A stretch of DNA of 64,000 nt from contig NZ_BDUD01000001.1 in the NCBI RefSeq assembly GCF_003113895.1, forward strand, positions 1,463,821 to 1,527,820, in the 5' to 3' direction. This document shows, piece after piece, positions 1 to 3,038 of the stretch. Under the pieces are notes generated by a model. It had not been told where the DNA came from and ran no database searches. It saw only the letters and a program-made list of their open reading frames with translations. The position numbers and the translations under genes were made by a program. The first letter of the stretch is position 1. Each line of letters starts with the position of its first letter. The stretch is from Nostoc commune NIES-4072. GTDB lineage: Bacteria; Cyanobacteriota; Cyanobacteriia; Cyanobacteriales; Nostocaceae.

Positions 1-892
1 CCATGAAGCTATTTCCCAAGGACGCTTAACCCACGAAATGGCTGCACCTGTGGGCAAAATGGACAAGCTTGCTTGGCAGCTGCTATTTCAGGAAATGCCA
101 ATAGGTGCAATGTTACGTAACTTGGGTTCTTTAACTGAACTGGGTGTGTTGCGAGCTGATGAAAACGCTAATTTGCAGCAAGTGGAAGCAGTTCTTAATC
201 GTAGAGAACATCTGCGTAAAGGTCGCATCCATCCGATTGATGTTTTGAAAGCACTCAAAACATATCAATGTGGTGGAACATTAGGACGCAGTAAGAAAAC
301 TTGGAACCCAGTTCCTCGGATTGTGGACATTTTAGAAAAGGCGGTTGAACTGTCTTTTGATGTTGTGCAACCCACAGGTAAAGTATTCATGCACGCCGTG
401 GATGTTTCTGGTTCTATGGGTAGCTTAGTTGCAGATATGGGACTAACTTGTTGTGAAATTGCCACCACAATGGCACTGGTAACAGCAAAAGCAGAGAAAA
501 ACTACATGATTCGCGGCTTTGCTACGGAATTCCGGGAATTGGGTATCACCGCCAAAGATAGTTTTAGTTCTGCGGTTCGCAAAGCTAGCAACCAAAACTT
601 CGGTGGAACGGATGCATCTGTAGCTTACGACTGGATGATTAAGAATAAGTTTAAAGCAGATGTAGTCTGCTTTTGGACTGATTCAGAAAGCTGGGCTGGG
701 TATAAGCATCCAAGTCAAGCGCTGAAGGAGTACCGCAAAAAGGTAAACCCTAACGTTAAGGCGGTGTATGTCACCTTAACACCTTACCAAATTACTTTGG
801 TAGATCCTGAAGATTCGCTGTCTTGGGATTTGGCAGGGTTCGACCCAGGTACACCTCGAATCATTCAGATGCTAGCTACGGGTGAATTGTAG
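1..892 (+). CDS. rsr: Ro60/Rsr-like TROVE-domain RNA-binding protein (5' end outside window)
   Basis: The reading frame is open from base 2 through the internal Met at 38, so the gene starts upstream of the window. Seen: the end of the helical TROVE region, then a von Willebrand A domain with a MIDAS motif DVSGSMG (about residues 122-128 counted from the Met at 38), the MIDAS threonine in GGTDAS and an acidic WTDSESW segment. In the family, Ro60/Rsr is a ring-shaped protein that binds misfolded RNAs and Y RNAs and works with exoribonucleases in RNA quality control and stress survival. The next element on the same strand is a tRNA-shaped RNA (941-1048), as expected where Y RNAs are encoded beside rsr. 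The family is secure from the MIDAS plus TROVE layout; the symbol is by homology. Confidence 0.85.
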   Translation, partial: HEAISQGRLTHEMAAPVGKMDKLAWQLLFQEMPIGAMLRNLGSLTELGVLRADENANLQQVEAVLNRREHLRKGRIHPIDVLKALKTYQCGGTLGRSKKTWNPVPRIVDILEKAVELSFDVVQPTGKVFMHAVDVSGSMGSLVADMGLTCCEIATTMALVTAKAEKNYMIRGFATEFRELGITAKDSFSSAVRKASNQNFGGTDASVAYDWMIKNKFKADVVCFWTDSESWAGYKHPSQALKEYRKKVNPNVKAVYVTLTPYQITLVDPEDSLSWDLAGFDPGTPRIIQMLATGEL

Positions 893-908
893 ATATTCCT
901 GAAGGGTA

Positions 909-930
909 AAGGATGAAACACTTTATCCTT
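909..930 (+). other. 9-bp hairpin between rsr and the tRNA-like RNA
   Basis: AAGGATGAA (909-917) pairs with TTTATCCTT (922-930) with one G-T pair and a 4-nt loop. No T-run follows, so it is more likely a processing or leader hairpin of the RNA than a terminator. Confidence 0.4.
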
Positions 931-940
931 CATACTTCAT

Positions 941-1048
941 GGCGGGTTATCCTTGTTCGCAACTTGCCTTTCGGGGCCGATGAATTTAGGATTATCGGTT
1001 ACGTCTCCACCATTGTGGGGATTAGCGGGTTCAATCCCCGCACCCGCC
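941..1048 (+). ncRNA. tRNA-like RNA downstream of rsr, candidate Y RNA (YrlA type)
   Basis: Seen: GGCGGGT (941-947) pairs perfectly with ACCCGCC (1042-1048) as a 7-bp acceptor stem. T-A follows at the tRNA 8-9 positions. A canonical T arm lies at 1025-1041 (GCGGG, loop TTCAATC, CCCGC). Between them are a stem CCGAT/ATCGG (977-981 with 994-998, 12-nt loop) and a 7-bp stem TCTCCAC/GTGGGGA (1004-1021). No normal 7-nt anticodon loop is visible and the whole is 108 nt, so it is not an ordinary tRNA. GCCGATG at 976-982 resembles the bacterial Y RNA Ro-binding consensus GNCGAA(N)G. Known: bacterial YrlA RNAs carry a tRNA-mimic domain and lie beside rsr. Inferred: this is the Y RNA of the neighbouring Rsr. 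A degenerate tRNA gene is the alternative. Confidence 0.62.
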
Positions 1049-1087
1049 TTTGTTATGATTTTATCCTTACGCAAAGAAGAAGGCGAT

Positions 1088-1297
1088 TTAATTTTTGAAT
1101 GGTCGTTTTTCTATTTCAGCGATGGGTAAGAGTAGGGTGTCTTCGATGTGCGATCGGACTTCAGGAGATACATTAGAAGTAGCGTTATTTAGGCAATCGA
1201 CAAGTAATCTATTACCATCTCTATACTGCTTTAGTAGCAGCTTTATTTGCTCAGGACTTAACTGCCAATTGTGAAAAATTTCACAATATTTCATCAT
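1088..1297 (-). pseudogene. C-terminal remnant of a NACHT-type NTPase (helical tail)
   Basis: A 69-residue frame with a WQLSPEQ...LLKQY...LLVDCLN...VSPEVR...TLLLPIAEIEKR pattern. From memory this resembles the short helical C-terminal tail found on many cyanobacterial NACHT/STAND NTPases. No NTPase domain remains: its upstream side ends three bases before the 93-bp repeat at 1301-1393. Inferred: what is left of a larger gene cut at the repeat. It could instead be a short independent protein, since it has an ATG of its own. The family resemblance is moderate and the pseudogene status is an inference from the junction. Confidence 0.45.
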
Positions 1298-1300
1298 GAT

Positions 1301-1393
1301 TAGGACTTACGCACACTCTACGAATTCTCGGCGCTCTTGGCGTCTTGGCGGTTCGAGAAATTAAGCTTTTTAGCAATTTTTGCGTAAGTCCTA
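1301..1393 (+). mobile_element. 93-bp MITE, copy 1 (no matching target duplication)
   Basis: Begins TAGGACTTACGCA and ends TGCGTAAGTCCTA, 13-bp perfect terminal inverted repeats. It is identical over all 93 bases to the copies at 30721, 39609 (inverted) and 62568. Unlike those three it has no 5-bp duplication: the flanks share only GAT. Both adjoining genes are truncated here, which suggests recombination or deletion at the element. Confidence 0.9.
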
Positions 1394-1394
1394 G

Positions 1395-1850
1395 ATTAAA
1401 GAACACCTGCAAGGTTACTCACCCAAACCTGACAGCAGCCTGATTCAGCCTTACTGGGATAGCGTTCAATCTGTCCTAAACCAACTTAGCGATGTTCAAC
1501 TGGTTGAGCAAGTTGTGCCTAACTATCAGGAACTTTACGCCGGAAAAGTTGATTTAGTTGCTCGTTATCAAGGTGTTCCACATGTAATTGAATGGACGAC
1601 AGCCGAAGAACCAAAACTGAGATTTGATAAGCTTTATGACAAGCCTTTACAAGTAGCTGCTTATAGTGGTGCAATTAACCGATATTGTAGCGATCGCCTT
1701 TTTAACTGCAAAATTAACCATGCTCTCATTGTTGTAGCCTTGCCAGGTGAAGAAGCAGAAATTTTTGAATTTGATCGTGCAACGCTAATTCATGTCTGGC
1801 ATCAATGGCTGAATCGGCTGAATTTTTTCTTCAGTGCAGTTGCAGCATAG
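1395..1850 (+). pseudogene. 5'-truncated MGME1-like PD-(D/E)XK exonuclease
   Basis: The frame is open from 1395, right after the MITE, to the stop at 1848, well upstream of the first Met (1515). The sequence resembles the small PD-(D/E)XK exonucleases of the mitochondrial MGME1 type: a YAGKVDLVA segment holding the catalytic Asp, then VIEWTTA where the family has an I(D/E)WKT motif, then PLQVAAY. The catalytic lysine position reads Thr, so the enzyme is probably inactive as well as lacking its N-terminus. A frame stop (TAG, 1392-1394) is formed by the end of the MITE and the next base. The family assignment is moderate; the truncation is seen directly. Confidence 0.6.
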
Positions 1851-1853
1851 AAG

Positions 1854-1932
1854 TGCGATCGCATATCCACCCGAACTAAGCGATCGCAATTCTTTACAAG
1901 CACAACCCAAAATAAAATAGCGATCGCTCATA
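1854..1932. repeat. Cluster of three HIP1 octamers
   Basis: GCGATCGC-type HIP1 palindromes occur three times within about 80 bases, alongside further copies throughout the window. HIP1 is the highly iterated palindrome typical of many cyanobacterial chromosomes. Confidence 0.8.
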
Positions 1933-1953
1933 ATTTATTCAACTATCGAATGC

Positions 1954-2805
1954 TTAATTAAACAATGTCCCCAGGAAATTGATAATTGGTTTCCAAAAGA
2001 TACCAGTCAACACATAAGGAGCGTATTGTAAAAGCGGTAAGCTTGACTGCTTCGACGACTTTATCGGTAAACACTCCAAGAGAAAAGGCACTATACAGGT
2101 AAGCCCATAAGCAGTTGCTAAAGCTGTATTCCATTCAGGATCATCTCCTGGTATAGGGCTATAATAAATACCCAACATAATGAAAGAGATCATTAAAAAC
2201 TGCTCCCATAAAAACCAGGACTGTGGTGGTAGAAAATAAATTAACTGGAGAAAGCTTTTGTTGTCTATTTTTTGTCGCATTCCCAAAAGGACAGCCCAAG
2301 TTGCAGCCCCAACGATGCCATCATCTTTCAGTCCATAAGTTCTTTGAAAGCGTTTAACGCCTCTTTCAGTTTCACGACTAAAATACCCGTCAGGTTCTTT
2401 TTTGAAAAACCCTTCTTCATTAAGAATAATTTGCAGTTCCTTAACTGCATCCTGTAATTTTGGAGACATACTTTTTTGATTGCGGTAAAGCTTTGGGTAG
2501 AAAAGGCAAGACCAACTCAGTGGCCCAACTATTCCATCTACATGAAGATTATTGGCTTTTTGAAATTTGATTACAGCCTCTTCTGTTTCTAAGTCAAATT
2601 TACCACTAATACTTGACAGAAAACCCTGAGCTTGAAGTCTCTCTTGCAGTTCATTGATTGATTCCTGTGCAGAGTTTGGTGAAAAGCCTCGGTATAATAT
2701 AGGACGTTTATTGAATACACAGACTTGTTTTTCGTCTGGAAAATAACGTCGGGATTGTTTTAGTCCAAACAAGAGGTTTAGAAAGCTAAGTGTTTTATTT
2801 GTCAT
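1954..2805 (-). CDS. Membrane protein with two peptidoglycan-binding domains
   Basis: 283 residues. Two PG_binding_1 repeats are visible at about 45-105 (LQERLQAQGFL...EEAVIKFQKANNLHVDGIVGPLSW) and 118-175 (LQIILNEEGFF...GVKRFQRTYGLKDDGIVGAATW). They are followed by about three hydrophobic segments (roughly 185-283). The repeats bind cell-wall glycan. The C-terminal membrane region suggests anchoring at the cytoplasmic membrane, although there is no obvious signal peptide in front of the repeats, so topology is uncertain. No catalytic domain is present. It is transcribed divergently from the STAND ATPase at 3039. The domain call is firm; the role is unknown. Confidence 0.75.
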   Translation of the reverse strand: MTNKTLSFLNLLFGLKQSRRYFPDEKQVCVFNKRPILYRGFSPNSAQESINELQERLQAQGFLSSISGKFDLETEEAVIKFQKANNLHVDGIVGPLSWSCLFYPKLYRNQKSMSPKLQDAVKELQIILNEEGFFKKEPDGYFSRETERGVKRFQRTYGLKDDGIVGAATWAVLLGMRQKIDNKSFLQLIYFLPPQSWFLWEQFLMISFIMLGIYYSPIPGDDPEWNTALATAYGLTCIVPFLLECLPIKSSKQSSLPLLQYAPYVLTGIFWKPIINFLGTLFN

Positions 2806-2949
2806 AATTTTATCGAGTAATTTTTGAAAAAATCATTTGACAAAGTTTTAGAGCTTAGAAATCGGTATGACCGCTAGCCTCTACTTAGTAGAGACAAAAA
2901 TAAACTTATAAATTAGCTTACTGGTTAAATTGAAGACAAGAATTAACAC

Positions 2950-2999
2950 TGTTAAAAAAATGTTATTAAATTGTTAAACTTTTGTTTGTTAAAATGTTG
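2950..2999. promoter_or_regulatory. Phased TGTTA repeats upstream of the STAND ATPase
   Basis: TGTTA occurs at 2950, 2961, 2972 and 2987. The first three are exactly 11 bases apart, one helical turn, in an AT-rich stretch about 50-90 bases before the ATG at 3039 and between two divergent genes. It could be an operator or simply AT-rich promoter DNA. Confidence 0.3.
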
Positions 3000-3038
3000 C
3001 CAATGTCACATTGATGACGAATTTATTAGGTGATATTT

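Follow-up and report, generated by a model that had tools for sequence, protein, structure and literature searches.

A candidate short tRNA-shaped Y RNA downstream of the Ro60 gene rsr in Nostoc commune

Introduction

The Y RNA of Deinococcus is not known to have a tRNA body, and its Ro stem is formed by the ends of the RNA. In vertebrate Y RNAs the Ro stem is described as built from the ends of the RNA (PMC4030889), and the Ro60 site as a helix in which one cytidine is bulged and the opposite strand also has a bulge (PMC4030889, PMC4726728), the bulged C being retained in bacterial Y RNAs (PMC4030889). The 5' and 3' ends of YrlA (Y RNA-like A) are described as paired in the Ro stem (PMC8394870), and in Deinococcus the Ro60 protein Rsr is reported to be tethered to PNPase by a Y RNA (PMC8058203, PMC4726728). 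The analysis presented here concerns a 64,000-nt stretch of DNA from Nostoc commune NIES-4072 (the window), in which the 3' part of an rsr gene, coding for the RNA-quality-control protein Rsr (Ro60), is followed by a structured element at 941-1048. Modeled structure and location indicate that this element is very probably a short tRNA-shaped Y RNA, encoded downstream in an rsr operon that supplies both Rsr and its own RNA partners. No description of such RNAs in cyanobacteria was found in the open-licence literature searched, and an earlier description elsewhere is possible. Coordinates given without a locus label are positions in the window.

Results

A preliminary description made from the letters of the window had placed a Y RNA with tRNA mimicry directly downstream of rsr. 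The gene is indeed a Ro60 gene with TROVE and vWA domains, and the spacer between its stop codon, which ends at 892, and the RNA measures 48 bases (893-940) rather than the 49 first given. The arrangement of the RNA (Table 1) shows GGCGGGT (941-947) and ACCCGCC (1042-1048) forming an acceptor stem with seven of seven pairs, T948-A949 placed directly after its 5' strand as the equivalent of U8-A9, and a T arm with the canonical loop, all as first reported; GCCGATG, the reported near-match to the Ro-binding consensus, is located at 976-982. Acceptor and T arm are the only tRNA parts of the covarying structure, the D arm and the anticodon loop being absent, and the reported lack of a 7-nt anticodon loop is also apparent by eye. 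The fold of 941-1050 has an energy of -46.3 kcal/mol (z -3.54), and none of 200 shuffles was equally stable. Cleavage by RNase P at 941 during maturation is plausible. Between the rsr stop codon and the RNA, a hairpin, AAGGATGAAA-CAC-TTTATCCTT, occupies 909-930 and by eye is kept by many, not all, relatives.

Table 1. Coordinates of the candidate RNA, its parts and the associated rsr features
Feature	Position	Strand	Evidence
Short tRNA-like Y RNA candidate (D-type), ~108 nt	941..1048	+	pairing, relatives, fold energy, covariation
Acceptor stem, 5' strand, partner of 1042-1048; preceded by a predicted RNase P site	941..947	+	
Ro arm lower helix, 5' strand (949-953:988-992, 955-958:982-985)	949..958	+	covariation
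Ro60-type element: UUG 964-966, stem 966-969/974-977, UUCG loop 970-973, bulged C 978, GA 979-980	964..980	+	covariation
Ro arm lower helix, 3' strand	982..992	+	covariation
Additional hairpin, between the Ro and T arms (1003-1008:1017-1022)	1003..1022	+	covariation
T arm GCGGG-TTCAATC-CCCGC, loop TTCAATC	1025..1041	+	
Acceptor stem, 3' strand; no encoded CCA, followed by TTTG	1042..1048	+	
rsr, 3' part (Ro60/TROVE-vWA protein), start outside the window	2..892	+	Pfam vWA_Ro60 2.3e-38, TROVE 6.9e-10
rsr leader hairpin, Ro-element look-alike, outside the window	L031:1253-1291		

A clean tRNA call and a lack of similarity among relatives had been named in advance as findings that would tell against a Y RNA. 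ARAGORN made no tRNA call in the window, and some part of 893-1060 was matched in 31 of 59 genomes, the source included, with rsr present in all 30 loci fetched; in G048, which is not among these 30, the sole match is confined to query bases 7-48 and ends ahead of the RNA. An alignment of 22 short copies (the window copy and 21 of 25 representatives, four being omitted as miscalled long or strand-swapped copies) has 94.6% of cells paired and double changes in 11 of 31 pairs (shuffles 0 of 500, slides 38-56%), and it backs the acceptor, the T arm, the hairpin at 1003-1022 and the arm at 949-992. It is well supported that the feature at 941-1048 is genuine and conserved, a Y RNA candidate with the shape of a tRNA that belongs to a larger family as its short member.

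The two further stems of the preliminary description fare differently in this alignment. The hairpin at 1003-1022 covaries, with double changes in four of six pairs and 98.4% of cells paired. The other, the lowest-energy stem CCGATGA/TTATCGG (977-998), has no double changes and 81.7% of cells paired and was rejected as the conserved fold; the lower Ro helix 949-958:982-992 covaries instead (double changes in four of nine pairs, 95.9% of cells). As judged from the relatives, the covarying inner fold of the window copy is therefore not the lowest-energy one. Within the Ro arm the stem 966-969/974-977 has 87.5% of cells paired and a double change in one of four pairs, and the base preceding the bulge is unpaired in 10 of the 22 copies. 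The T arm is paired in 100% of cells, and the acceptor in 90.3% with one doubly changed pair (UA/AU), a count lowered by five rows shifted by one column. A short insert is present in the Ro arm of the downstream copies of L056, L064, L089 and L107.

The source genome contains two longer copies upstream of rsr, outside the window (L031 893-1018 and 1129-1253). The long copies are tRNA-like with an 8-bp acceptor, a D arm, a T arm, mostly a 5-nt variable loop and often CCA. Their alignment (n=32: the two L031 copies and 30 of 36 representatives, the other six being omitted by hand for odd linkers) shows double changes in 23 of 35 pairs, including all eight acceptor pairs, with 96.6% of cells paired (shuffles 0 of 500, slides 38-50%), and column analysis places a hairpin directly behind the Ro arm. 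Among 190 long or strand-swapped copies, 7 bp of acceptor are followed by one base and then ACCA in 66 or CCAA in 22, so the CCA end is often encoded, and by a CTTT continuation instead in 44. When the Ro arm of ~52 nt is skipped, a 5-bp anticodon stem with a 7-nt loop is formed in 136 of 173 unique copies, 117 of these with U33 (with six of 183 copies left out as unplaceable), compared with a mean of 17.4 stem-loops (maximum 25), 5.8 with U33 (maximum 12), when the 3' part was shuffled and scored in the same way. The Ro arm of most long copies therefore interrupts a normal anticodon stem in its 5' strand. A plain hairpin test that does not allow a split stem finds the loop in 108 of 191 copies (shuffles mean 49), and an earlier view of the long copies as lacking an anticodon loop was dropped as wrong. 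By eye, the strands of the lower Ro helix stand in swapped order in some copies, e.g. L034 1107-1230 (reverse complement) and L105 1678-1797. A small repeat, ACCCTACGGGAAGCAAGCTAC, is inserted in the T loop of some upstream copies of L041, L042 and L052.

The letters of the Ro element presumably resemble those of vertebrate Y RNAs. In the window copy the arm 949-992 holds both Ro60-type strands (UUG and GGC-bulged C-GA) and is capped by a UUCG tetraloop. At best placement, UUG is found in 242 and the bulged C with its G in 232 of 250 unique frames, a set that includes a few chance matches in coding sequence (e.g. L074 minus 1661), and the tetraloops are mainly GAAA (92), GCAA (66) and UUCG (31). 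Two hallmarks of a bacterial Y RNA, a Ro60-binding helix with a single bulged C, here in the predicted structure, and a gene adjoining rsr, are both present. Y RNA identity, as first proposed, is supported by the rsr-adjacent location, the covariation and the modeled Ro60-type element with its bulged C.

The named rsr loci are the best 80 of 169 relatives from a protein scan, and 78 of them have upstream copies, 1-6 each (250 pattern matches; five matches on the opposite strand). A downstream copy is present in 57 of the 79 named loci with at least 300 nt behind rsr. The 55 frames found anywhere behind rsr lie 48 nt from its stop codon in 22 cases and 38-59 nt in 41. In the source genome the core pattern (at most two mismatches) occurs twice, both times adjoining rsr, the second upstream copy being missed because of one base fewer in the pattern. 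A covariance model of the long type, applied to 194 genomes of the phylum with 18 candidates scored per genome, gives at least 59 bits in 19, all of them among the 26 genomes with TROVE; matches of ordinary tRNA length reach 55.6 bits. In Picosynechococcus PCC 7002, rsr with such copies is located on plasmid pAQ7. Two TROVE genomes, G086 and G092, have YrlA-like RNAs with a closed acceptor adjoining rsr (47.6 and 42.7 bits, cut-off 69), and G097 carries both kinds. Runs of ordinary tRNA genes occur in the stretches around the TROVE matches of L203 (G097), L206 (G072) and L209 (G176). Around the TROVE match of L211, minus 2031-2096 and 2171-2236 match the nematode small-RNA family RF01656 (ceN72-3_ceN74-2) with 37.4 and 31.3 bits, near its cut-off of 38.

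The full-length Rsr (532 aa, recovered beyond the window) matches Deinococcus Rsr 2nvo at 1.4e-74 and aligns to it and to vertebrate Ro60 across nearly the whole length of both. H187, named essential for Y RNA contact (PMC4030889), aligns to a histidine of the Nostoc commune protein (positions counted by hand). A promoter-like TTGACA-17-TACATT (10/12) ends 29 nt before the first upstream copy, one of two such sites in the entire scan (shuffles 3.9), and a similar site is present in 57 of 74 unique upstream regions, compared with 1.75 expected from plain shuffles for a pattern that was written post hoc. The stretch from the last upstream copy to the rsr start codon contains a hairpin, UUGCCYGNARGGCYGGGAG, that overlaps the likely ribosome-binding site. 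The strict motif is found in 71 of 75 unique leaders and a relaxed one in every one of the 80 named loci, as 31 distinct segments; the top pair is C-G in 15 of these, U-A in 14 and U-G in 2. This predicted look-alike of the Ro element suggests autoregulation by Rsr.

Elsewhere in the window, a 13-nt perfect inverted repeat, TAGGACTTACGCA/TGCGTAAGTCCTA, with arms 67 nt apart, is located at 1301-1393 and has the looks of a small mobile repeat.

Discussion

Several points weigh against a Y RNA at 941-1048. The case is built on sequence, location and predicted structure. For the window copy itself the fold with stem 977-998, which would bury the Ro element, is the more stable at -45.1 compared with -37.6 kcal/mol for the covarying fold, and a downstream copy was not found in 22 of the 79 named loci. 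The 59-bit threshold was chosen after the scores were seen, with only 18 candidates scored per genome; the next genome, G171, lacks TROVE and reaches 57.3 bits with a tRNA carrying an unrelated insert, and seven of the 26 TROVE genomes (G072, G075, G084 with an 83-aa piece, G086, G092, G094 and G176) have no match of at least 59 bits. The window copy scores 43.1 bits with the long-type model, under some ordinary tRNAs (up to 48.9, L203), and its membership in the family is therefore one of core and place, not of the whole long-type model. It is not recognised by the Rfam models of Y RNA and YrlA, and profile comparison finds no sequence similarity between the Ro arm and YrlA. Of the 31 leader-hairpin segments, 19 have C as the bulged base and 12 have U, so the match to the Ro element is not a strict one. 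The insert in G171 (L207, G171:C1:57600-57900) lies by eye in the anticodon arm, and a neighboring tRNA seems to be built likewise.

The long copies might alternatively be tRNA genes of the ordinary kind whose anticodon stem is interrupted by an intron, decoding after removal of the Ro arm, with the window copy as a decayed relative. The 5-bp stem and 7-nt loop formed when the insert is skipped, far above the shuffled null, would fit such genes, as would the rise in ARAGORN calls from 1 of 177 copies intact to 174 after excision of the arm, and acceptor types partly track anticodons (TGGCGGG in 18 of 22 AGG copies, TGGTGGG or TGGTGGA in 17 of 20 GCC copies). However, excision at random places also yields calls in 126-140 of the 177, and the calls were for this reason set aside as weak proof of tRNA origin, whereas the acceptor TGGCAGG is shared by six anticodons (GTT, TCC, TTT, CAT, CTT and AGG) and a partial match is expected for copies keeping their place in an array. 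In the 51 copies directly before rsr, moreover, positions 34-36 vary (entropy 1.78-1.84 bits) around a U33 that is constant in all 51, the scoring favoring U33, and the core pattern (at most two mismatches) is confined in the source genome to the neighborhood of rsr. Decoding genes of this kind are considered improbable, and from their sequences the long copies are read as tRNA mimics rather than decoding tRNAs.

There is a similarly small chance that the window element is a structured 3' untranslated region of rsr, acting as a protection or processing signal and not as a separate RNA. It lies on the same strand 48 nt past the stop codon, and a simple scan finds no promoter-like site between, but a complete minihelix of acceptor and T arm with a Ro element is under covariation and the upstream copies have the same core. 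That a true YrlA, a permuted tRNA with the Ro stem at its ends, was missed by Rfam is hardly credible. A match of 32.3 bits (cut-off 69) does span two adjacent L034 copies; similar matches below cut-off occur in 11 of 14 control genomes, none of the 194 genomes reaches the curated cut-off of YrlA (RF02553) with 18 candidates scored in each, and none of five phage rsr loci holds a YrlA at the gathering score. Rotation of the profile at the tetraloop raises four YrlA sequences to 16-34 bits compared with 8-16 unrotated, yet three pairs of ordinary tRNAs score about the same (14-30), and the match across tandem copies was discarded as proof of permutation. From these scores and a Ro part that matches nothing, it follows that these RNAs and YrlA have the tRNA body in common, and the Ro element at the level of the motif only. 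The YrlA type named in the preliminary description was dropped for the window copy, since the Rfam scan of 1-3000 (E<=5) returned nothing relevant and no YrlA match, and the topology is the reverse, with the acceptor open and the Ro arm capped.

If 941-1048 is the short Y RNA of an rsr operon, a single transcript would start before the upstream copies, and the tRNA-like units would be released from it by RNase P and the tRNA 3' enzymes. The motif and its location suggest that the UUG/GGC-C-GA element in the Ro arm of every unit would be the binding site of Rsr. Analogy with YrlA and the Deinococcus Y RNA suggests that the tRNA-shaped body may gate the Rsr ring or dock a tRNA-handling partner such as a nuclease. 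The look-alike hairpin at the ribosome-binding site of rsr may be bound by free Rsr, whose synthesis would then stop until it is titrated by the Y RNAs. The TROVE transcript of Chlorogloeopsis fritschii PCC 9212 is reported to have "increased dramatically" after erythromycin (PMC6424891), and translation stress is therefore suggested as a condition; the relative C. fritschii PCC 6912 has upstream copies (L084).

A broader proposal is more doubtful and is offered tentatively. Cyanobacterial rsr loci could encode arrays of tRNA mimics that are complete down to the anticodon loop and have the Ro60 arm in the anticodon stem, an unpermuted counterpart of YrlA. Held by Rsr, these could act as decoys or sensors for enzymes that cleave anticodons or otherwise handle tRNA, and Rsr could control its own translation through the Ro-element copy at its ribosome-binding site, the supply of Y RNA setting the level of Rsr. 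Were this so, the tRNA mimicry of Y RNAs would exist with the tRNA intact and open-ended, and a straightforward change of ends could connect YrlA with tRNA genes. RNAs that work as they look would be an example of a tRNA turned into a protein-guiding RNA and would offer a tractable system, e.g. PCC 7002 with pAQ7, for why Ro60 partners resemble tRNAs. The leader hairpin makes autoregulation by Ro60 directly testable.

Compared with tRNA (RF00005), the family shares the acceptor, U8-A9, the D arm, mostly the 5-nt variable loop and the T arm, and the tRNA cut-off is exceeded by L032 (46.3 bits) and by two copies of L034 (36.8 and 33.7). It differs in the arm of ~52 nt held inside the anticodon stem of the long copies and in the missing D arm and anticodon loop of the window copy, and a callable cloverleaf with an anticodon loop is found in neither the window nor, with the one intact exception, the long copies. 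YrlA has in common with these RNAs its place with rsr, a Ro stem and tRNA arms (D, T and acceptor in the long copies, acceptor and T in the window copy), and by eye its Rfam consensus ggCgaAUG ... cUuGucGcc is the same kind of Ro element. In the YrlA consensus the acceptor is loop-closed, whereas in the covarying structures of the cyanobacterial copies it is open and the Ro arm is capped, and most long copies retain the anticodon stem-loop. The Deinococcus and vertebrate Y RNAs are not known to have a tRNA body, and they form the Ro stem from their ends, whereas the cyanobacterial copies are tRNA-bodied. With these Y RNAs they share, as a predicted structure, the Ro60 site in which one C bulges from the helix and the opposite strand is bulged as well, as it is described for them (PMC4030889, PMC4726728).
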